Below, in pieces: positions 1 through 11,598 of a DNA stretch of 64,000 nt (its first letter is position 1; the number at the start of each line of letters is the position of its first letter). Below the pieces are notes generated by a model. It saw only the letters and a program-made list of their open reading frames with translations. It did not search any database and was not told where the DNA came from. Origin of the DNA: Paenimyroides aestuarii (GTDB lineage Bacteria; Bacteroidota; Bacteroidia; Flavobacteriales; Flavobacteriaceae); contig NZ_CP102382.1 of the NCBI RefSeq assembly GCF_024628805.1, forward strand, positions 2,418,001 through 2,482,000, in the 5' to 3' direction. Position numbers and translations under genes: made by a program.

Positions 1-1
1 A

Positions 2-250
2 ACTGAAGATACTAATAGGTTTGCTTTTGTCTTAATAGAAATATTAGAAAAACCAACTGCGGTTTTACCCAACTTAAACCTTTCGAAACACAAACAAATT
101 GATCTAAAAACATTTGATGAAATTTTTCATGATGCCATGAATTTAAAAGATCTTAAAAATTCAAGAGGTTATGTTATTGAAGGCGAACCTTTTAAAAGGC
201 AAGGCATCGAACTCCTCTACGAATGGGAAGAACAACCTAAAAAACAATAG
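2..250 (+). CDS. GLPGLI family protein, C-terminal fragment (5' end outside window)
   Basis: The reading frame is open from the first bases of the window to a TAG at 248-250, so this is the last 82 codons of a gene that begins to the left. It ends in LLYEWEEQPKKQ, nearly the same tail as the complete GLPGLI gene at 679-1482 and similar to the one at 1890-2687. The GLPGLI motif itself would lie upstream and is not visible. Assignment rests on the shared tail and on the near-identical downstream DNA. GLPGLI proteins are secreted Bacteroidota proteins of unknown function, often beside outer-membrane barrels. Confidence 0.75.
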   Translation, partial: TEDTNRFAFVLIEILEKPTAVLPNLNLSKHKQIDLKTFDEIFHDAMNLKDLKNSRGYVIEGEPFKRQGIELLYEWEEQPKKQ

Positions 251-377
251 CATATTTATAGTATTTTAACATAATTTTTTGTATTTTGATTTTGTAATTT
301 GTAATTTCAATTTTTAAGCGCATTAGCTTGCGTAGCTTTTGCTGGAAGCAGTTTTGCTTCGAATGAAGTTGTTAATG
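209..377 (+). repeat. Direct repeat, copy A (GLPGLI tail + spacer + signal-peptide region)
   Basis: Positions 209-360 match 1441-1592 with only four mismatches (offset 1232 bp), and weaker similarity runs to about 377. The repeat covers the last 42 bases of the GLPGLI gene, the whole spacer and the signal-peptide part of the small ORF. Similarity drops sharply in the mature part of the small protein and upstream in the GLPGLI body. Confidence 0.9.
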
Positions 378-628
378 TAGTATCTAAAGTTGAGACTAGT
401 ATAGACTCTAATTATTTTCAAGACGATAATGGTTTTACTTACTGTACAATAACAATTACTGTATCAGACCAAGATGGAAACGTTGTAGATCAAAGAACTT
501 TTTTTAGAATAGTTTCTGGTACTGGTTATGCTGGGGCAATTAATTGTGCTGCAACAGGTGCTGAATTAGCAGCACAAATAAGTAAGAACATTACCCCTGA
601 TGGTCACATACCTCTTATGTTTCAATAA
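305..628 (+). CDS. Small secreted-protein reading frame without a start codon (copy A)
   Basis: An open frame of 107 codons follows the GLPGLI fragment. It opens with a clear signal-peptide core (FLSALACVAFAGSSFA, then SNE) and a mature part of about 88 residues with two cysteines, in YCTITITVSDQDG and GAINCAATG. The in-frame codon before it is TAA (302-304) and there is no ATG, GTG or TTG before the signal core, so no normal start exists. One extra T in the 5-T run at 311-315 would join it to an upstream frame starting at TTG 279. Copy B at 1537-1836 has the same arrangement. It may be a start-lost pseudogene, a silent cassette, or a gene with unusual initiation. Function unknown. Confidence 0.5.
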   Translation, partial: FQFLSALACVAFAGSSFASNEVVNVVSKVETSIDSNYFQDDNGFTYCTITITVSDQDGNVVDQRTFFRIVSGTGYAGAINCAATGAELAAQISKNITPDGHIPLMFQ

Positions 629-635
629 TTATCAT

Positions 636-660
636 GTGCTAGCAATTAAATTGCTAGCAC
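636..660. terminator. Perfect 25-nt palindrome after small ORF copy A
   Basis: Twelve bases (636-647) pair perfectly with 649-660 around a single central A, eight bases after the stop codon of copy A. No T-run follows (tatgtaag), so it is not a classical intrinsic terminator. It could be an mRNA 3'-end hairpin or a protein-binding palindrome. The equivalent place after copy B has an unrelated hairpin. Confidence 0.45.
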
Positions 661-678
661 TATGTAAGATTTAACTAT

Positions 679-1482
679 ATGAAAAGAATTTTAACGTTAC
701 TAGTTTGCTTATTATTTTCAACATTTTTGAGAGGTCAATACTCTTTACAAATAGAGTACAATCAAATTTTCAATACAGATTTTCCTTTAATAAGAACCGG
801 ATTGCTTCAAGTGAATAGTAATCAATCTATTTTTGTAGATTTAATGAAAAGTAAAAGACCTATAAAGGAAAATAGTGATACGAATATTTCATACTTAGAT
901 AACCTTTCCGACCATGAAAGATATACAGAAATAAAAGAAGGAGAAAAAATTAATTTACAGGTTGGTGGTAATTATGATCAGTATTACATGTATGACCAAA
1001 GTAAAAAGACTTTTCTGTTTACAGGTGAACTTGGCAAAGAGCAATTTCTTATTTCGGATAACTTTAATTTGCAATGGGAAATAACGAATGAAACAAAAAC
1101 GATCTCTAATTATAAGGTTTATAAAGCCTCTACAAATTTTAGAGGGCGAAATTGGGATGCATGGTTTGCTCCTGAATTGGCTTATAATTTTGGACCATGG
1201 AAACTGCATGGTTTACCAGGGTTAATTTTAGAAGCTTATGATGACAGTCATCGATATCATTTTGTAGCTATAAAAATTAAGAATGATAAAAATTTACCAA
1301 TGGAACCAAATACTCATTTTTTAAAGAAGATTGATTTTAAAAATTTTATATTGGGTAATTTTGAAATAATTGAAAATAGTGTAAACATAATTGAAAGAGA
1401 CTATGAGGTTATTAGGCATAATGTAAAGCGTAACAGTAAAGAACTCATCTACGAATGGGAAGAACAACCTAAAAAACAATAG
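679..1482 (+). CDS. GLPGLI family protein
   Basis: 267 residues with an N-terminal Sec signal peptide (MKRILTLLVCLLFSTFLRGQ). The family signature GPWKLHGLPGLILEAYD lies at about residues 172-188, preceded by WDAWFAPELAYNFGPW, and the protein ends ELIYEWEEQPKKQ. This is the full-length pattern of the Bacteroidota GLPGLI family, exported proteins of unknown function. It is followed by a direct-repeat copy and a start-less small ORF, as is the partial GLPGLI gene to its left, which suggests tandem duplication of a two-gene unit. Base composition is lower in GC than most of the window. Confidence 0.9.
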   Translation: MKRILTLLVCLLFSTFLRGQYSLQIEYNQIFNTDFPLIRTGLLQVNSNQSIFVDLMKSKRPIKENSDTNISYLDNLSDHERYTEIKEGEKINLQVGGNYDQYYMYDQSKKTFLFTGELGKEQFLISDNFNLQWEITNETKTISNYKVYKASTNFRGRNWDAWFAPELAYNFGPWKLHGLPGLILEAYDDSHRYHFVAIKIKNDKNLPMEPNTHFLKKIDFKNFILGNFEIIENSVNIIERDYEVIRHNVKRNSKELIYEWEEQPKKQ

Positions 1483-1609
1483 CATATTTATAGTATTTTA
1501 ACATAATTAATTGTATTTTGATTTTGTAATTTGTAATTTCAATTTTTAAGTGCATTAGCTTGCGTAGCTTTTGCTGGAAGCAGTTTTGCTTCTAATGAGA
1601 TTGTTAAAG
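1441..1609 (+). repeat. Direct repeat, copy B (GLPGLI tail + spacer + signal-peptide region)
   Basis: Second copy of the 209-377 block: four mismatches in the first 152 bases. The differences are one base in the GLPGLI tail, TT/AA at 1509-1510, and a C/T just after the 5-T run. Both copies share the missing start codon, so that defect or feature predates the duplication. Confidence 0.9.
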
Positions 1610-1836
1610 AAGTAGAAGCAAACAAAAGTTCAAATGTGAATTTAGATTTTGATGCTGCTCCTTGTAGATTTAGTATTTGTGTTTACCATCCTGAAACGGG
1701 AGAAGCTATCTACGGTTTCGATTATGTTGGAACAGCAGGAAGTGCTGACGATTGTTTTGAAAAAGGCTTAAGAAAACAAGAGGAACTTAGTATTGAGTAT
1801 CCCGGAATGAACATAAGTATGGATATAATAAATTAA
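1537..1836 (+). CDS. Small secreted-protein reading frame without a normal start codon (copy B)
   Basis: An open frame of 99 codons starts right after an in-frame TAA (1534-1536). It has the same signal-peptide core as copy A (FLSALACVAFAGSSFA) but a different mature part with three cysteines (APCRFSIC and SADDCFEKG). The general plan, a strand with Cys, a D/E-G turn, a Gly-rich segment and a Cys before a helix, resembles copy A. The only usual start codon near the front is GTG at 1636, which would remove the signal peptide, so I do not believe it is the natural start. A hairpin terminator follows. Function unknown. Confidence 0.5.
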   Translation, partial: FQFLSALACVAFAGSSFASNEIVKEVEANKSSNVNLDFDAAPCRFSICVYHPETGEAIYGFDYVGTAGSADDCFEKGLRKQEELSIEYPGMNISMDIIN

Positions 1837-1889: not shown

Positions 1890-2687
1890 ATGAAAAAAAT
1901 TTTTATATACAGTTTATTTTTTTTAGTCATAAAAACTTGGGGGCAAAATAATAAATTAGTTGTTAAATATGATATTCTATATCAGACAACTAAAACGTTA
2001 CAAAGAACAGGTTGTTTGTGGGCTGATAATGAAAAATCTATTTTTGAGGTAGATATTCTTTCTGCTTTAACTAAAGATGAAAAAGATGACAAACCTGAAA
2101 TAAAAAATACTACACTACACGTAATTAAAGCTGATATTACACGTAATTATTATTATCTAACTTTTTTAAAAGATAATGATTTTCTTTTTTTAGATGATTT
2201 ACAAAAAGGTAAATTAATATTAATTTCAGACAAAGCAGGTCAAAACTGGAAGCTAACCAACGAAACCAAACAAATTAATAACATTACATGCCAAAAAGCA
2301 ATATGCATTTTTAGAGGTGTAGAATGGGAAGCATGGTTTGCTCCTTCTATCCCTTATCCTTATGGACCTTGGAAATTAAGAGGATTACCAGGCTTAATTA
2401 TTGAAGCGTATGATGTAAATAAAAAATACAATTATAGCGCAAGAAGTATAGAATACACAAAAGCTTTAGGTTTGTTAGATAAAGATTTAGAAGATTTGAC
2501 TACTGAAAAAATTTATGCTAAAATGACGATGAAAGAGTTTATAACCCAAAAAGATGAGGCTTTAGAAGCTATTTTAGCAAATATAAAAAGAGGTGGTGAA
2601 GTAAAAGTAAGAAACGCTTCCGAAAATGGAGGTAAAGTTAGATACGGAAGAGAACTTATCTACGAATGGGAAGAACAAAAAAAGTAA
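1890..2687 (+). CDS. GLPGLI family protein (TonB-receptor-linked)
   Basis: 265 residues with a signal peptide (MKKIFIYSLFFLVIKTWGQ) and the motif GPWKLRGLPGLIIEAYD at about residues 161-177, preceded by WEAWFAPSIPYPYGPW. It ends ELIYEWEEQKK. It is diverged from the 679-1482 paralogue in the first 100 residues and in the segment after the motif, but the core and tail are conserved. Eight bases separate its stop from the start of the outer-membrane barrel gene at 2696, so the two are surely one transcript. Unlike the other GLPGLI genes it has no small ORF behind it. Confidence 0.9.
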   Translation: MKKIFIYSLFFLVIKTWGQNNKLVVKYDILYQTTKTLQRTGCLWADNEKSIFEVDILSALTKDEKDDKPEIKNTTLHVIKADITRNYYYLTFLKDNDFLFLDDLQKGKLILISDKAGQNWKLTNETKQINNITCQKAICIFRGVEWEAWFAPSIPYPYGPWKLRGLPGLIIEAYDVNKKYNYSARSIEYTKALGLLDKDLEDLTTEKIYAKMTMKEFITQKDEALEAILANIKRGGEVKVRNASENGGKVRYGRELIYEWEEQKK

Positions 2688-2695
2688 ACATATAG

Positions 2696-5359
2696 ATGCC
2701 AAAAATACTAATAACCTTATTTTTGCTATTCACAACCGTTTACTTGCACGCACAAACTGTTTGCAAAGGAACGGTTGTTTCTGTGGCTAAAGTGCCCATT
2801 TCAAATGCATCGGTTTTAATAAAAAATACCGAAGATCATATTTTGCAGTTTGGTTTTACCAACGCACAAGGAAATTTTAGCATTCAAACCGAAAACGAAG
2901 GCAGTTTTGTGGTAGAGGTAAACAAAATGGGTTTTGAAAAGCAACAACAACCCATAACCATTACCAAAGACAAAAAAGAATACAACCTATTGTTTACGTT
3001 AGAAGAAAGCAATGAAGTGTTAGAGGATTTGGTCATAGAAATAGATAATCCCATACAATTGCGGGGCGACACGCTTAGCTACGATGCCAAAGCGTTCAGC
3101 ACCGGCCGTGAAGTGGTAGTAGAAGATTTGCTGAAAAATATTCCGGGCATTACTGTTGAAAAAGACGGTAAAATAAAGTTTGAAGACACCGAAATTGAAA
3201 AAGTAATGGTAGATGGCGACGATTTTTTTAATCGGGGATACAATATTCTTACCAAAAATATGCCCAACAAGCCGGTTGATAAAGTACAAGTTTTGCGCCG
3301 TTACAGCAACAATAAATTATTAAAAGGGGTAGAAGAAAGTAATAAAGTGGCGCTAAACCTAACCATTGATGAAGAATACAAAGACTTGTGGTTTGGCGAT
3401 ATAAGTGCTGGTTATGGTTTGGCTACAGAAAACCGCTATGAAGTTTCGGGTAACTTGATGAACTTCAGTAAAAAATATAAAAACTTTTTAACCTACGGTT
3501 TAAACAATGTGGGCCAAGACCGTGTGGGATCGTTAGAAAGTATGTTTTACAACAATTACGAAGTAGAATCTATTGGTAATGGCGGACAGTTGCATCAGCT
3601 AATGGGGCTTTACGGTGCAAGAGCCAGTCGGTTAAAAGACCATCGTACACGGATAAACAATGCCGAACATGTTTCGCTGAGTTCTATTGTACCCATAACC
3701 GAAAAGTTAAAAATAAAAGCAGTTGGTTTTCTCGGGTTCGATGAAAACTACGCTTTTAACAACAATTACAGCATTACCAATGTAGGTGCAACCTATTTTG
3801 AAAACATCGAAAACAACCAGTTTAAAAGTCATTTAAAAAGCGGTTATGTGAATATTTTAGCAACCTATGATGTTTCTAAAACCCAAATGCTGCAAGTGAG
3901 TTCGGTTTATAATCAAGGAAACACCAACAATACCAACGATTTAACATTTAATGGAAAAAACACTTTAGAGAATCTGCAAACTAACAACACCTTTTTCGAT
4001 CAAAAAATCACCTACACCCATAAATGGAACGATAAAAATGTGGTATTGCTAAAAACCAGGTATTTCACCAACAAATTGCCGCAATTTTACAGCATCAACG
4101 ATTATTTAATGGGCGATTTGTTTGCGTTTGATGCAGCCGCAATGAACAACGACATCACCAACAATAAAACATTTGCAGGCATTGAAGCCGATTTTAAACT
4201 GAAACAAAAAAACAACGATTTAATTGAATTTCAAGTAGGATATGAGCATCACAACCAATCCATGAATACTGTTTTTCAATTGTTTAATGATGCGGAAATT
4301 GTTCGTCCAGAAGGATTTCAAACCGATAGTTCGTTTACCTTGGGCGATTTTTATGCAAAAAGCGGATACACTTGGAAATGGAACACTTTTAAAGTTTCGG
4401 GTAGGGCAGAAGCACATCAATTGTTCAATAGTTTTTCAACCATTCAATCAAGCAAAAAGCAGCATCCTTTTTATGTGAATCCTTCCGTAAATTTCATGTG
4501 GGATGTAACGCCTACGCATTATTTCAACGGATCTTATATGGTGTTTTTCAACAATACTTCGTTTGTTGATGTAAACGATACGTATTTGTTAACATCCTCA
4601 CGAAGCTTTTCAAAAGGTTTGGGGCAATTCCGCCTTACCGATTCGCAAATGGCAAATATCGGATACAGCATTCGCCACTATTTAAACCGCTATCGTTTTT
4701 CGTTAAATTTCAATTACAGCAAACAAAGCAATGTGCTTACCAATCGCAGTTTTATTGAACAAAACAGCTCGCTAAGTGAGAGTGTTTTCATAAAAGGAGG
4801 CGATACTTTTGGAGTAAATTTTGCAAGTAATTTTTATTTTAGAAAGATAAAAAGCAACTTAAAACTTGAAAGTAATTACACCTATTCCACATCGTTTAAC
4901 GAAGTAAACAATTCCGGACTACGCAAAAACAATTTTGCCAATCAGCGTTACAATATGGAATGGCGCACCAGTTTTAAAAGTCCCTTCAATTTTCATATCG
5001 GCAGCGAATGGAATCGTTCCAAAGTAAAATCGCCCGATTTTGAAAACAGCTTTACAAACGTTTTCAACTTTTTAGATGTGTATTATAAAATTGGGGAATT
5101 ATTAGATATTAAAGCAGTAACAGAACATTATTATTTTGGCAATTTAGCGGCTAACCAACGCAACCATGTTTTTCTAGATTTCGAAGCCACTTATAAATTT
5201 AAAGGAGATAAATACACCTTGGGTTTGCGAGGAAATAATTTGTTTAACAAGCAAAATTTCACAACTTTCAATGTAAGCGATATTGGTTACAGCAGTACCA
5301 GCTATCGTTTAATGCCTCGTTTTTTACTGCTAACTGCAAAATACAGGTTCAGTTTATAA
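2696..5359 (+). CDS. TonB-dependent-receptor-like outer-membrane beta-barrel protein with carboxypeptidase-like domain
   Basis: 887 residues: signal peptide 1-19 (ending YLHAQ), a carboxypeptidase-regulatory-like beta domain at about 20-110 (GTVVSVAKVPISNASVLIKN), a plug-like region about 120-225 (DLLKNIPGITVEKDGKIKFE), then a long beta-barrel ending in RFSL. This is the architecture of the Bacteroidota outer membrane beta-barrel family that accompanies GLPGLI proteins. Typical SusC signatures are not evident and there is no SusD partner. It is co-transcribed with the GLPGLI gene ending 8 bases upstream. Substrate unknown; the pairing suggests the GLPGLI protein works with this barrel at the outer membrane (inference). 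Confidence 0.88.
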   Translation: MPKILITLFLLFTTVYLHAQTVCKGTVVSVAKVPISNASVLIKNTEDHILQFGFTNAQGNFSIQTENEGSFVVEVNKMGFEKQQQPITITKDKKEYNLLFTLEESNEVLEDLVIEIDNPIQLRGDTLSYDAKAFSTGREVVVEDLLKNIPGITVEKDGKIKFEDTEIEKVMVDGDDFFNRGYNILTKNMPNKPVDKVQVLRRYSNNKLLKGVEESNKVALNLTIDEEYKDLWFGDISAGYGLATENRYEVSGNLMNFSKKYKNFLTYGLNNVGQDRVGSLESMFYNNYEVESIGNGGQLHQLMGLYGARASRLKDHRTRINNAEHVSLSSIVPITEKLKIKAVGFLGFDENYAFNNNYSITNVGATYFENIENNQFKSHLKSGYVNILATYDVSKTQMLQVSSVYNQGNTNNTNDLTFNGKNTLENLQTNNTFFDQKITYTHKWNDKNVVLLKTRYFTNKLPQFYSINDYLMGDLFAFDAAAMNNDITNNKTFAGIEADFKLKQKNNDLIEFQVGYEHHNQSMNTVFQLFNDAEIVRPEGFQTDSSFTLGDFYAKSGYTWKWNTFKVSGRAEAHQLFNSFSTIQSSKKQHPFYVNPSVNFMWDVTPTHYFNGSYMVFFNNTSFVDVNDTYLLTSSRSFSKGLGQFRLTDSQMANIGYSIRHYLNRYRFSLNFNYSKQSNVLTNRSFIEQNSSLSESVFIKGGDTFGVNFASNFYFRKIKSNLKLESNYTYSTSFNEVNNSGLRKNNFANQRYNMEWRTSFKSPFNFHIGSEWNRSKVKSPDFENSFTNVFNFLDVYYKIGELLDIKAVTEHYYFGNLAANQRNHVFLDFEATYKFKGDKYTLGLRGNNLFNKQNFTTFNVSDIGYSSTSYRLMPRFLLLTAKYRFSL

Positions 5360-7151: not shown

Positions 7152-9059
7152 ATGAAACTATACCAAACACTTGAAGCCCAACTTAAAAAAGAAAACAACT
7201 ACGTTACCGATAATGGTGAATTAAAAAAATGGGTAGTTCTGAACAAAGCACAGAATTTTGATGAAGAATTGATTGGTCTATTACTCGATAATGCAGACCT
7301 TAAAGAGCAATTTTTTGTAAACGTAAAAGGCACTCTAGTTTTTAACCAAAACCTATTTACTCAATTTTTAGAACAAAAAAACTATCTGAACGACAGTTAC
7401 ACCCAATACAAAAACAAAGTAGGTTTAACTATTGATGGAAAATATTTAAAGCAACGCAATGAAGTAGCTTTGGTTTGGCCGTTTAAAGACTGCGTTTTAG
7501 AGGGTGGACAAAGCCGTGAAGAAGACAAGCGCGAAGAAATTTTCTTTAATGAAATTTTAGCACAAGATGAAATCACCCAACTTTTAGAACCAAAAGTTCT
7601 AACCAATGCCAAACGCATTGACAAAGAAGGAGAACACCCTCTTTGTCATTCTGAACGAAGTGAAGAATCTCTTTTTAACCGAAACGAAAACGGCACCATA
7701 ACCGACAACCTTATTATTAAAGGCAACAACCTTTTAGCCTTGCACACGCTGAAAGAACAATTTGCCGGAAAAGTAAAACTGATTTATATTGATCCGCCTT
7801 ATAATACAGGTAATGATGGATTTAAATATAATGATAGTTTTAATCATTCTACTTGGTTGACATTTGTTTACAATAGACTAAAAATTGCTCGTGAATTATT
7901 GAGTAATGATGGAAGTATTTTTATTTCTATTGATGATAGAGAATTTGCACACTTAAAAGTATTAGCCGATGAAATTTTCGGAAGTGACAATTTTCTTAAT
8001 GATGTAATTTGGAATTCTACAAAATCAGTTACCAATACAGCACTTATTTCAGTTTCTCACAATCATACTTTAATTTATTTTAAAAACAAAAAGTATTTTA
8101 TTGAAAATAGAACAGAATTTCGTTTGAAAGAAGATGGAGAAGGTTTTGAGAATCCAGACAATGATCCAAGAGGTCTTTGGAAGGCTGATCCTTTTCAGGT
8201 GGGTGGTTGGCGACCAAATCAACAATACGATATAATTAATCCAAATACTGGAGTTGTTTATAAACCAAATGTAGGATGTTCTTGGAAAAATGATTTTACG
8301 AAATTTCAAGAATTATTTCGAGAAAATAGAATTATTTTTGGTGTATCAGGTGAAGCTGGTCCTCAAAGAAAACGATTTTTAAGTGAAGCTCTTGAAAGAG
8401 GAAAAGTTGCCAAAACAATTTGGGATGATATTGGCACAACTACTAATGGAACACAACATTTAAAAGCGCTTTTTAAGAATACCGTATTTCAAAATCCTAA
8501 ACCAGAATCACTAATCGAAAGAATAATTCAGTTAGCTAGTAAAGAAAAAGACATTGTTCTAGACTTTCATCTTGGTTCTGGTACAACAGCAGCCGTAGCG
8601 CATAAAATGAATCGTCAGTACATTGGTGTAGAACAAATGGATTATATAGAAACCGTTGCTGTTGAAAGATTAAAAAAAGTTATAGCTGGTAAACAAGGCG
8701 GCATTTCAAAATCTGTCAACTGGCAAGGAGGTGGCTCATTCGTTTACCTCGAACTCAAAAAATACAATCAAACATTTATTGAGCAAATAGCTTCGGCAAG
8801 CTCAGCTACCCAGCTTTTAGAAATTTGGGAACAAATGAAAGCCAAAAGTTTCCTCAATTACAATGTGGACATTAAAAAACAAGACGAACATTTAGAAGAT
8901 TTTAAAGCCCTAAGCCTTGCTGAGCAGAAACAGCATCTTTGCGAATTGTTGGATAAAAACCAATTGTATGTAAACCAATCTTCGCTTTATGATGCAGACT
9001 TTGCTTGCACCGAAGAAGAAAAGAAAATAACCCAAGATTTTTATCAATTAAAAAAATAA
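7152..9059 (+). CDS. mod: Type III restriction-modification system DNA methyltransferase (Mod)
   Basis: 635 residues. The amino-MTase motif IV DPPYNTGNDGF (D214-Y217) comes before the SAM motif I LDFHLGSGTT (about 470-479), followed by NRQYIGVEQMDY. That order is the beta class of N6-adenine methyltransferases found in type III Mod subunits. Between them lies the variable target-recognition region. Residues 165-174 (CHSERSEESL) are encoded by an interspersed repeat that has inserted in frame in the N-terminal linker. Mod both methylates and gives sequence specificity to the Mod-Res complex. Its stop is 4 bases before res. Confidence 0.95.
   Translation: MKLYQTLEAQLKKENNYVTDNGELKKWVVLNKAQNFDEELIGLLLDNADLKEQFFVNVKGTLVFNQNLFTQFLEQKNYLNDSYTQYKNKVGLTIDGKYLKQRNEVALVWPFKDCVLEGGQSREEDKREEIFFNEILAQDEITQLLEPKVLTNAKRIDKEGEHPLCHSERSEESLFNRNENGTITDNLIIKGNNLLALHTLKEQFAGKVKLIYIDPPYNTGNDGFKYNDSFNHSTWLTFVYNRLKIARELLSNDGSIFISIDDREFAHLKVLADEIFGSDNFLNDVIWNSTKSVTNTALISVSHNHTLIYFKNKKYFIENRTEFRLKEDGEGFENPDNDPRGLWKADPFQVGGWRPNQQYDIINPNTGVVYKPNVGCSWKNDFTKFQELFRENRIIFGVSGEAGPQRKRFLSEALERGKVAKTIWDDIGTTTNGTQHLKALFKNTVFQNPKPESLIERIIQLASKEKDIVLDFHLGSGTTAAVAHKMNRQYIGVEQMDYIETVAVERLKKVIAGKQGGISKSVNWQGGGSFVYLELKKYNQTFIEQIASASSATQLLEIWEQMKAKSFLNYNVDIKKQDEHLEDFKALSLAEQKQHLCELLDKNQLYVNQSSLYDADFACTEEEKKITQDFYQLKK
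7644..7670. repeat. Interspersed HSERSEES-type repeat inside mod
   Basis: The DNA encoding CHSERSEES (tgtcattctgaacgaagtga plus agaatct) is a short repeat I know as common in intergenic DNA of Bacteroidota and other genomes. Here it sits in frame in mod with a few flanking residues (HPL before, FN after). Confidence 0.75.
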
Positions 9060-9063
9060 GCAA

Positions 9064-11598
9064 ATGGCGTTTCTTCACGAAATATTCAATAATCCTTTTG
9101 CAAAAAAAGCCTTAGCACAAGTACAGCTACCAAATTGGATTTCTGATAACTTGAAATTTGAGCAAAGACCTTATCAGGTAGAAGCTTTCAAAAGATATAT
9201 ATATTTAGACCAAGAAGATTTAGAGGAAAAACCAAAAAGACCTTACCATTTGCTTTACAATATGGCAACGGGAAGCGGAAAAACCTTGATAATGGCGGGT
9301 TTAATGTTGCATCTTTACCAAAAAGGCTATCGCAATTTTTTGTTTTTTGTAAACAGCAACAATATCATTCAGAAAACCAAAGATAATTTTTTGAATCCTC
9401 AGGCTTCAAAATATTTGTTCAATAACAAAATTGTGATTGACGGAAAAGAAGTACTTATCAAAGAGATTGATAATTTTGATGAAGCAGACGACAGAAACAT
9501 CAATATAAAGTTTGTTTCTATTCAAATGCTTACGTCGGGCTTACTTTTAAATGTTCGAGAAAACGGTTTAAGTTTCGAAGATTTTGAAAATCGAAAGTTA
9601 GTATTGATTGGCGACGAAGCACACCATAATAATGCTAGTGTTTGGGGCGATTTAGTTGAAAAAATACACAGAATGAGTTTTGAAAACATTCTCTTGGAAT
9701 TTACAGCAACAATGGACTATGAAAGTAAATCAATCGTTGAAAAATATCAAGACAAAGTAATTTTTAAATACGACCTTGCCGAGTTTCGTAACGACAAATA
9801 TTCTAAAGAAATAAACCTTATACGTTCTTTGTATGACGAGCAATACCGAATCATTCAGGCATTGATTTTGAACTTGTATCGTCAGGAATTGGCAACTTCA
9901 AACAATATCAATCTAAAGCCAGTAATTCTTTTTAAAGCCAAACGAACCATTAAAGAATCGGAACAAAATAAAGAAAACTTTCACAAGCTTATTGATGATT
10001 TTTCAGTTGCAATGGTTGAGAAAATTCAAAAGACTTCTACCGTTCCAATTGTTCAAAAGGCTTTTCATTTCTTTGAAGCTAAAGGTATTTCAGCCAATGA
10101 AATTGTTAAGCGTATTCAAACTAATTTCAGATTTGAGAATTGCTTAAGTGCCAACAATGATGCAGAAGCCGAGAAAAACCAACTTTTATTGAATACTTTA
10201 GAAGATGAAAACAATCCAATTCGTGCTGTTTTTGCTGTTCAAAAACTGAATGAAGGTTGGGATGTTTTGAATTTATTTGACATTGTTCGGCTCTATGAAG
10301 AGCGCGATGGAAAAAACGGAAAGCCAGGAAAAACCACACTTTCAGAAGCTCAGTTAATTGGGCGTGGTGCAAGATATTATCCGTTTGCCTTGGAACAAGG
10401 TCAAGAAAAATTCACCCGAAAATTTGATGATGATATTTCCAACGAACTAAAAACATTGGAAGAATTGTATTACCACACTAAAGAAGATAGCCGTTACATT
10501 TCGGAATTGAAGAAAGCCCTTGTGGATTCGGGTATTTATGAAGATGATGCAAATTTGGTTCAACTAAGTTTGTTCTTAAAACCAGAATTTAAGAAAACAG
10601 ATTTTTATAGAGATGGACACGTTTTCTTCAATAAGAAAGTGCCAAAGAGTTTTGACAACATAAAATCGTTTGCCGATTTAGGAGCTACGAAAACCAACTT
10701 TCGACACACATTATCTTCGGGAGTTGGCAGAATGTCAAGTGCTTTTTTTGAGCTGGAGCCTACACAATCCAATGATGAAGTAATTAAAACTAAAGATGTA
10801 AAGCTGACTGAAATTCCGAAAAACACAATCCGTTTTGCATTAAGTAAAAACCCGTTTTTCTATTTTGATAGTTTATTGCATTACTTTCCAAATGTTGGTT
10901 CACTTTCCAATTTCATTGAAAGCACAGACTTTTTAGCAGGGTTAGAAATAACATTTAGCGGAACAGCTAACCGACTCAAAGAAATTAGCCATTTCGACTA
11001 TTTACAAGCCTTAAACGGACTTTTACAAAACATTGAAGCAGACATAAAGAGCAACTCGACAGTATACGAAGGTTCAGATTATATCAAAGAACCAATTTAT
11101 AAAGTTTTCAAAGACAAAGAAATTAAGGTTTACAGAGATAGCGAACGAGCAGATGGACAAGAAACATTGGTAGCCAACGAGCCTTGGTATGTTTACAATG
11201 CCAACTACGGCACAAGTGAAGAAAAGAGATTTGTAGAACTGTTTTCAAGGCGATTTGAAGGACTTAATCAGAAGTTTGAGAACATTTACCTAATTCGTAA
11301 CGAAAGAGAAATTAAAATCTTCGACAAACTCGGACGAGCATTTGAACCAGACTTTTTATTGTTCTGCAAACAACGTGACGGAGAACAAATGACTTTTCAG
11401 GTTTTCATAGAACCGAAAGGAGAGCATTTAAAAGGACACGACAAATGGAAAGAAGATTTTTTAAAAGCAATTAGAGCAAAAGAAAAACAGATTACCATTC
11501 ACACAGATACTTATTTAATAACAGCTGTTCCGTTTTACAATTACAACAACGAAAACGAGTTTAACACGTCTTTGGAAAGTACACTTTTTGAAGTGTAA
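9064..11598 (+). CDS. res: Type III restriction enzyme, helicase/endonuclease subunit (Res)
   Basis: 844 residues. Superfamily 2 helicase motifs: Walker A MATGSGKT (67-74), DEAH box GDEAHH (about 184-188), a SAT-like EFTATMDY, and a later helicase motif LIGRGARYYPF (VI-like). A C-terminal PD-(D/E)xK nuclease is visible as FEPDFLLF (about 759) and IEPKGE (about 782). ATP-driven DNA translocation and cleavage require the Mod partner encoded 4 bases upstream. Both genes look intact, so the system is probably active. Recognition sequence unknown. Confidence 0.95.
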   Translation: MAFLHEIFNNPFAKKALAQVQLPNWISDNLKFEQRPYQVEAFKRYIYLDQEDLEEKPKRPYHLLYNMATGSGKTLIMAGLMLHLYQKGYRNFLFFVNSNNIIQKTKDNFLNPQASKYLFNNKIVIDGKEVLIKEIDNFDEADDRNINIKFVSIQMLTSGLLLNVRENGLSFEDFENRKLVLIGDEAHHNNASVWGDLVEKIHRMSFENILLEFTATMDYESKSIVEKYQDKVIFKYDLAEFRNDKYSKEINLIRSLYDEQYRIIQALILNLYRQELATSNNINLKPVILFKAKRTIKESEQNKENFHKLIDDFSVAMVEKIQKTSTVPIVQKAFHFFEAKGISANEIVKRIQTNFRFENCLSANNDAEAEKNQLLLNTLEDENNPIRAVFAVQKLNEGWDVLNLFDIVRLYEERDGKNGKPGKTTLSEAQLIGRGARYYPFALEQGQEKFTRKFDDDISNELKTLEELYYHTKEDSRYISELKKALVDSGIYEDDANLVQLSLFLKPEFKKTDFYRDGHVFFNKKVPKSFDNIKSFADLGATKTNFRHTLSSGVGRMSSAFFELEPTQSNDEVIKTKDVKLTEIPKNTIRFALSKNPFFYFDSLLHYFPNVGSLSNFIESTDFLAGLEITFSGTANRLKEISHFDYLQALNGLLQNIEADIKSNSTVYEGSDYIKEPIYKVFKDKEIKVYRDSERADGQETLVANEPWYVYNANYGTSEEKRFVELFSRRFEGLNQKFENIYLIRNEREIKIFDKLGRAFEPDFLLFCKQRDGEQMTFQVFIEPKGEHLKGHDKWKEDFLKAIRAKEKQITIHTDTYLITAVPFYNYNNENEFNTSLESTLFEV

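Follow-up and report, generated by a model that had tools for sequence, protein, structure and literature searches.

Tandem GLPGLI cassettes with recently homogenised boundaries and start-less small ORFs in Paenimyroides aestuarii

Known systems and layout of the array

GLPGLI proteins are widespread in Bacteroidota and, to our knowledge, no function has been assigned to them. The descriptions of the corresponding models (TIGR01200, PF09697 and PF22252) mention no small partner, no tandem arrays with constant ends and no terminal barrel gene. The search terms Porph_ging, TIGR01200 and PF09697 led to no paper in the literature searched, and the retrieved passages in which GLPGLI genes are named merely list them and describe no such partner, which itself has no searchable name. 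No system of the kind considered here was found in the retrieved passages on repeat phase variation in Flavobacterium and on silent cassettes in Bacteroidetes.

As is generally said of conotoxins and bacteriocin precursors, the small proteins described below have a leader that is more conserved than the mature part, both across paralogs and across species. Silent-cassette systems such as pilS/pilE and vls/vlsE are said to consist of tandem copies lacking a 5' end which share their flanks with complete copies, and an arrangement of this kind is present in a sister species (genome G173). Unlike in those systems, no matching expression site was found in the genome under study (G000); in G173, ATG-bearing copies are located in the same array as start-less ones. 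Moreover, the variable bodies are at a background DNA identity of about 0.52, and the cassettes hold a second gene. The vlhA genes of Mycoplasma synoviae reportedly include a reservoir of pseudogenes. In M. gallisepticum, GAA repeats are located 5' of the vlhA genes (excerpts of PMC6258824). The gene family described here resembles vlhA, as portrayed in these excerpts, in a trinucleotide repeat of variable length at a fixed 5' place, in paralogous secreted-type genes with conserved flanks and in copies without a working 5' end. It differs in the proteins and the phylum, in the repeat unit ((ATT)n versus (GAA)n), in the lack of a tract at the copies of the present array and in being known from sequence alone.

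The window, the 64-kb stretch analysed (G000:C1:2418001-2482000), belongs to a one-contig genome of 2.96 Mb. It contains the end of an array of eight GLPGLI genes (g1 to g8) oriented in one direction (locus L017, 4578-12687; window position = L017 minus 10000), with a long ORF of the outer-membrane barrel type after g8 as the terminal gene (Table 1). The first-pass annotation, made from the window, had the array running off the left edge, where further GLPGLI genes and a third copy of the boundary block are indeed located. All eight large genes of the array score above the curated NCBIfam cut-off of TIGR01200 (50 bits) and are thus members of the GLPGLI family. The Pfam cut-offs are passed by g7 for PF09697 (Porph_ging) and PF22252 (PNGase_F-II_N) and by g8 for PF09697 only. 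At the C-termini (window 1441-1482 and 2644-2687), residues E255, E259, W260 and E261 (g7 numbering) never vary among 22 array members and reach a conservation of at least 90% across 70 sequences; they might represent a sorting or binding signal.

Table 1. Features of the array inside and next to the window (window positions unless stated otherwise)
Feature	Position	Strand	Remarks
Boundary block copy A	L017 9040-9213 = genome 2417040-2417213		Left of the window
3' part of GLPGLI gene g6	1..250	+	Gene start left of the window, L017 9516
Boundary block copy B	209..382	+	GLPGLI tail (ELLYEWEEQPKKQ stop), 54-nt spacer and constant small-ORF leader; L017 10209-10382
Small ORF B	305..628	+	107 codons; lacks a start codon up to the end of the leader; variable body with two family cysteines
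GLPGLI gene g7	679..1482	+	TIGR01200, 145.1 bits (cut-off 50)
Boundary block copy C	1441..1614	+	L017 11441-11614
Small ORF C	1537..1836	+	99 codons; lacks a start codon up to the end of the leader; body relatives P0009 and P0023 located elsewhere behind an ATG leader
GLPGLI gene g8, final array slot	1890..2687	+	TIGR01200, 132.6 bits
Partial extra occurrence of the GLPGLI-tail part of the block	2644..2678	+	35 nt, 89%
Long ORF with CarboxypepD_reg-like domain and sub-threshold outer-membrane beta-barrel match	2696..5359	+	Closes this and related arrays

Recently homogenised boundaries and turnover of contents

Positions 209-360 and 1441-1592 differ at 4 of 152 nucleotides (215, 277, 278 and 319), as claimed in the first-pass annotation, and the divergence stated there for the GLPGLI bodies and for the mature small-ORF parts was likewise confirmed. 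The similarity reaches to about position 382/1614 (174 nt, 9 mismatches) and ends abruptly. Identity in ungapped 20-nt windows was 0.85-1.0 within the block and 0.25-0.6 beyond it; the last window, lying across the block end, had 0.65. A block occurring only twice had been named as an outcome speaking against a shuffled array; the genome contains three copies. Over 174 nt, copies A and B differ at 19, A and C at 10 and B and C at 9 positions, and A and C share a 128-nt core with no mismatches. Both the g1-g2 and the g2-g3 junction carry a copy of a second, unrelated block of about 180 nt, which spans the GLPGLI tail, the spacer and the next signal peptide, with no small ORF in between.

For six GLPGLI pairs within the array, dS values of 1.4-2.8 (near saturation) were obtained, and for three ortholog pairs with the sister species G173 (g1-h1, g4-h4 and g5-h5) values of 0.13-0.22. 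Since the bodies are near-saturated while the core of copies A and C has no mismatches, the boundaries have been homogenised recently. In the GLPGLI tail plus 30 nt downstream (66 sites), the paralogs h1 and h5 differ at 5 sites and the orthologs g1 and h1 at 20; similarly, g5 and g7 differ at 2 sites and the orthologs g5 and h5 at 9. Paralog tails are closer than ortholog tails in the pairs tested, and the boundaries therefore evolve jointly within a genome. The simple explanation given at first, recent recombination or gene conversion through the block, is supported by the near-identical boundaries next to saturated bodies, by the closeness of the paralog tails and by the second homogenised boundary.

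The locus is best read, with a probability of about 0.7, as a tandem cassette array which recombines at its boundaries, with swapped contents and three start-less small ORFs that are probably silent. In a full cassette, a GLPGLI gene would come after a gene for a small secreted-type protein that has a constant signal peptide and a variable body with two cysteines; the block, consisting of GLPGLI tail, spacer and small-protein leader, would be the cassette boundary, and the outer-membrane barrel gene would close the array. Ordinary homologous recombination (gene conversion, unequal crossover or exchange with DNA of related strains) might work through the boundaries, so that these would stay alike within a genome and whole bodies could be replaced. 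A boundary variant without the usual 5' module and ATG would have spread to three cassettes of G000; since this variant has no ATG module, the three small ORFs are probably not expressed.

The contents of the arrays were compared between species, with one genome per species. Among the eight GLPGLI genes of G000 and the six of G173, three pairs show 90% amino acid sequence identity, the other 45 comparisons 28-38%. In the last slots of these two arrays, tail and spacer agree at 43 of 46 aligned bases and the start of the barrel gene at 558 of 597, with the GLPGLI proteins in between agreeing at 93 of 239 residues. The block copies are located after different GLPGLI genes in the two species. The first slots of G261 and G205 have the same 5' region, leader and barrel gene (90% identical over the first 1500 nt) and a different small protein and GLPGLI gene. 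There, the last 150 nt before the leader and the leader itself show 0.92-1.0 identity per 50-nt window, followed by 0.54-0.74 (aligned bases); further upstream (-450 to -200) the values are 0.64-0.78 with many gaps. The same slot with the same 5' region, leader and barrel gene and another body supports cassette exchange between species, and the comparisons make this exchange and recombination at the cassette boundaries appear well supported. In G173, one GLPGLI gene (GLPGLI-X) is present in two copies (dS 0.08), one of which is joined to the block via an internal deletion of the small ORF that has left only the end of the latter. Furthermore, start-less and ATG-bearing small-ORF copies in the G173 array have both flanks in common.

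These comparisons bear on a bolder proposal of the first-pass annotation, according to which variable cassettes are shuffled behind a constant leader. It finds support across the family and between species, where one slot has the same leader with another body; secretion from the window copies lacks such support, as they have no start codon before the leader. An identical order across strains, which was to speak against it, could be checked between species only, and there the contents differ. Decay of the small ORFs in relatives, named for the same purpose, is partly seen: in G173, one copy is frameshifted, one is truncated and another is reduced to a deletion remnant.

Matches to the block at E up to 1e-3 were obtained in 137 of 398 genomes of the genus, most of them short and over the AT-rich spacer; those in G173, G261, G205, G083, G306 and G336 were followed. 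The 5' modules are conserved between species (0.81-0.87 upstream in G306 and G422, also in G261 and G205), so that selection also holds these regions and recombination is not the sole force. A 64.6-kb contig of G173 (L149, G173:C2) carries small-protein matches (E 6e-8 and 9e-8) together with GLPGLI genes; this contig is perhaps a plasmid, which would offer a transfer route.

The small-protein family and its 5' regions

The small ORFs of the array have the traits of a family characterised by a constant leader of the SALACVAFAGS type, two conserved cysteines and a gene position directly before a GLPGLI gene. A profile search yielded 169 proteins at E up to 1e-3, and 91 of the 120 listed (the best 120 of 169) contain exactly two cysteines after residue 24. 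This search leans on the leader, so that leader conservation among the matches partly reflects which proteins are found. Identities were averaged over 22 copies, three of the 25 having been dropped (two for their short bodies, one for lying too close to the start of its locus). The 16 pairs within loci gave means of 0.80 upstream, 0.90 for the leader and 0.52 for the body, and the 215 pairs between loci 0.57, 0.79 and 0.52, respectively. Bodies of the same locus are therefore no more alike than bodies of different loci.

None of seven small proteins scanned had a Pfam or NCBIfam match above the cut-off, and matches to DUF4352, DUF3244, DUF6520 and other Pfam models were rejected, all being below it; judged by these scans, the small proteins are an undescribed family. 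In an AlphaFold2 model of P0001 (mean pLDDT 72.9), the 10-residue blocks from residue 51 onwards average 90-96 and the earlier part has low confidence; the predicted core is beta-beta-alpha-beta. Searches for solved structural relatives with g7 and with the small-protein profile gave chance-level matches only. A role in anti-phage defence was likewise discarded, as six proteins gave no PADLOC match.

A search for small proteins next to GLPGLI genes in other genomes had been suggested with the first-pass annotation. In nine genomes chosen for holding the block or leader, a non-random sample, 29 of the 31 small ORFs detected at E up to 1e-3 have a GLPGLI gene directly downstream, at a distance of at most 600 nt; at E up to 0.1 the figure is 32 of 38. 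Conversely, 31 of the 63 GLPGLI matches listed have such a small ORF in front. A wider draw of 60 relatives gave a match at E up to 0.01 in 13 genomes only; the family is therefore patchy. The distances of small bodies correlate with those of the downstream GLPGLI proteins (Mantel r 0.50, p 0.0002, n 20) and also with those of the upstream ones (r 0.37, p 0.02, n 10), two of 25 copies with bodies under 60 codons having been dropped and, for the downstream test, three more whose GLPGLI gene was missed by the regular expression. For the seven copies with both neighbours, the values were 0.28 (p 0.10) downstream versus 0.20 (p 0.15) upstream. Nearest neighbours were concordant between small body and downstream GLPGLI protein for 8 of 20 copies, namely the eight with a small-body distance below 0.8. 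Since the upstream GLPGLI also correlates, a matched pair of small protein and downstream GLPGLI protein is no more than suggested; the same correlation would result if neighbouring genes had descended together.

AT-only trinucleotide tracts of at least 15 nt were found 12 times in 20 loci (188,991 nt), which were likewise picked for holding the block or leader, all 5' of genes of the small-protein family; the 64-kb window contains none of this length. Ten of them fall within 200 nt before the leader, at 10 of 25 copies (regions totalling 4,894 nt). The other two (L151 3623-3637 and L154 4431-4448) precede weaker family members (E 0.013 with an internal stop and E 5e-4, respectively) which have the sequence after the tract in common. 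When the threshold was relaxed, tracts of 13-54 nt were seen at 12 copies, their ends lying 48-51 or 73-76 nt upstream of the Ser codon; the three copies of the window array have no repeat tract upstream. The promoter boxes with -33/-7 spacing (consensus from excerpts of PMC6847099) fit the position of the tracts unclearly. G000 has a second such locus (L026, G000:C1:292001-308000). Its two small ORFs, on the minus strand with starts at 9682 and 5674, have an ATG and encode the leader SALAIVAF; each precedes a GLPGLI gene and a barrel gene, and their TAT tracts, 18 and 54 nt long, occupy the same position. A trinucleotide repeat at a fixed upstream site, differing in length between paralogs as in vlhA, is thus present in relatives and at L026.

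The conserved 5' modules seen in G306, G422, G205, G261, G173, G336, G421 and L068 are of several kinds, and some of them contain inverted repeats, e.g. TTTTAGAA...TTCTAAAA. A known RNA element was rejected as an explanation: in eight loci scanned, no Rfam match lies inside the arrays including the 5' modules, and the sole match, a Flavo-1 RNA (RF01705, 51 bits; L152 7136-7240), is located outside, 258 nt past the end of the barrel gene of the G422 array.

The features of the array point to a variable secreted system in Bacteroidota, and small partner, terminal barrel and upstream repeat tract provide a testable context for the GLPGLI family. A tentative and rather doubtful extension is a phase-variable, recombination-shuffled flavobacterial system in which swappable small proteins with a constant leader, each with its own GLPGLI partner and all with a shared barrel, would be switched by (ATT)n tracts and supplied by start-less donors. 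Such a system, if real, might serve recognition or antagonism between strains.

Start-less small ORFs and alternative readings

The three small ORFs of the window array (A with 106 codons, B and C as in Table 1) open right after a TAA with FQFLSALACVAFAGSSF / FQFLSALACVAF, and no in-frame ATG, GTG or TTG is found before or inside the leader of any of them. The signal peptide at the gene start assumed in the first-pass annotation is thus present as a leader sequence, without a start codon in all three copies. All first in-frame candidates come after the leader (A, codon 29; B, codon 105 of 107; C, codon 34); a product started there would therefore lack the leader and, for B, would hardly be a protein. 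Among the leader-pattern copies of nine genomes and one MAG contig, 21 of 25 have an in-frame ATG (two of these with a broken or truncated body, L058 12148 and L150 1958); the four others are the three in G000 and a G173 copy for which a TTG could serve as start. At the level of the start, the three copies correspond to the partial copies of silent-cassette systems, and they are probably silent, judging from their 5' ends.

Plain decay, in which pseudogenes produced by a leader deletion were multiplied through duplication and conversion and no longer serve any role, is given slightly less than an even chance; it is compatible with the boundary-recombining array and is its least eventful form for the small ORFs of the window. 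In addition to the missing start codons, copy A has Asp instead of Ala in the expected cleavage motif (SSFDS versus SSFAS), and the degraded copies of G173 point in the same direction. At a third locus of G000 (L027 6007-6348, minus strand), a small ORF before a GLPGLI and a barrel gene is frameshifted in an A-run just after its start, with a related intact protein in G083. Against decay, bodies A, B and C are all open (95-103 codons from the leader Ser on) with both conserved cysteines. Close relatives with an intact ATG leader are P0003 for body A (86%) and P0023 (82%) and P0009 (78%) for body C; for body B the best relative listed has 34%, and B was left out of the comparison of changes. 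Relative to outgroups, tallied by hand from alignment rows with ambiguous sites omitted, 4 changes were counted in A and 4 in P0003, 5 in C and 5 in P0009, and 6 in C and 4 in P0023; the excess on the start-less side sits in the leader. With little or no excess in the bodies, silence is not visible as decay. Yet the recent homogenisation may have left little time for it, and intact bodies therefore do not separate a silent reservoir from recent loss.

Programmed variation, with the start-less copies as silent donors (as pilS or vls) recombining via the block into an expression site with an intact leader, is unlikely. Their open bodies with little or no excess of changes look donor-like, and the G173 array mixes start-less and ATG copies with the same flanks and has duplicated and deleted cassettes. 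In G000, however, a search for the pattern coding for ALACVAFAG, with up to 2 mismatches allowed, returned the three start-less copies alone, so that no matching expression site was found, and the two ATG genes of L026 carry another leader.

A similarly low probability is assigned to the view that the block is a regulatory element, acting as DNA or RNA, and is maintained by selection instead of recombination. The 5' modules are islands of conservation between species (G261 and G205) and the repeat tracts lie at a fixed distance from the leader, as expected of such an element; the boundaries themselves differ between the orthologs g1 and h1 (20 of 66) and are alike between paralogs, the block copies follow different GLPGLI genes in the two species, and the arrays of the eight loci scanned gave no Rfam match. 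Translation of the start-less ORFs by an unusual route (initiation at a codon other than ATG, or frameshifting out of a frame further upstream) is very improbable: the equivalent ORF of G173 is open up to a TTG at which the public protein P0007 begins, but this form has no basic residue before the hydrophobic stretch, where most copies start with MKK or MRK, the G000 copies lack even such a codon, and ATG is the rule in leader-bearing copies.

The boundary-recombining array is the preferred reading. Elsewhere in the window, an ORF resembling DNA methyltransferases (7152-9059, motif DPPYNTG) contains a CHSERSEESLF stretch inside its coding sequence, which resembles an inserted dispersed repeat element.
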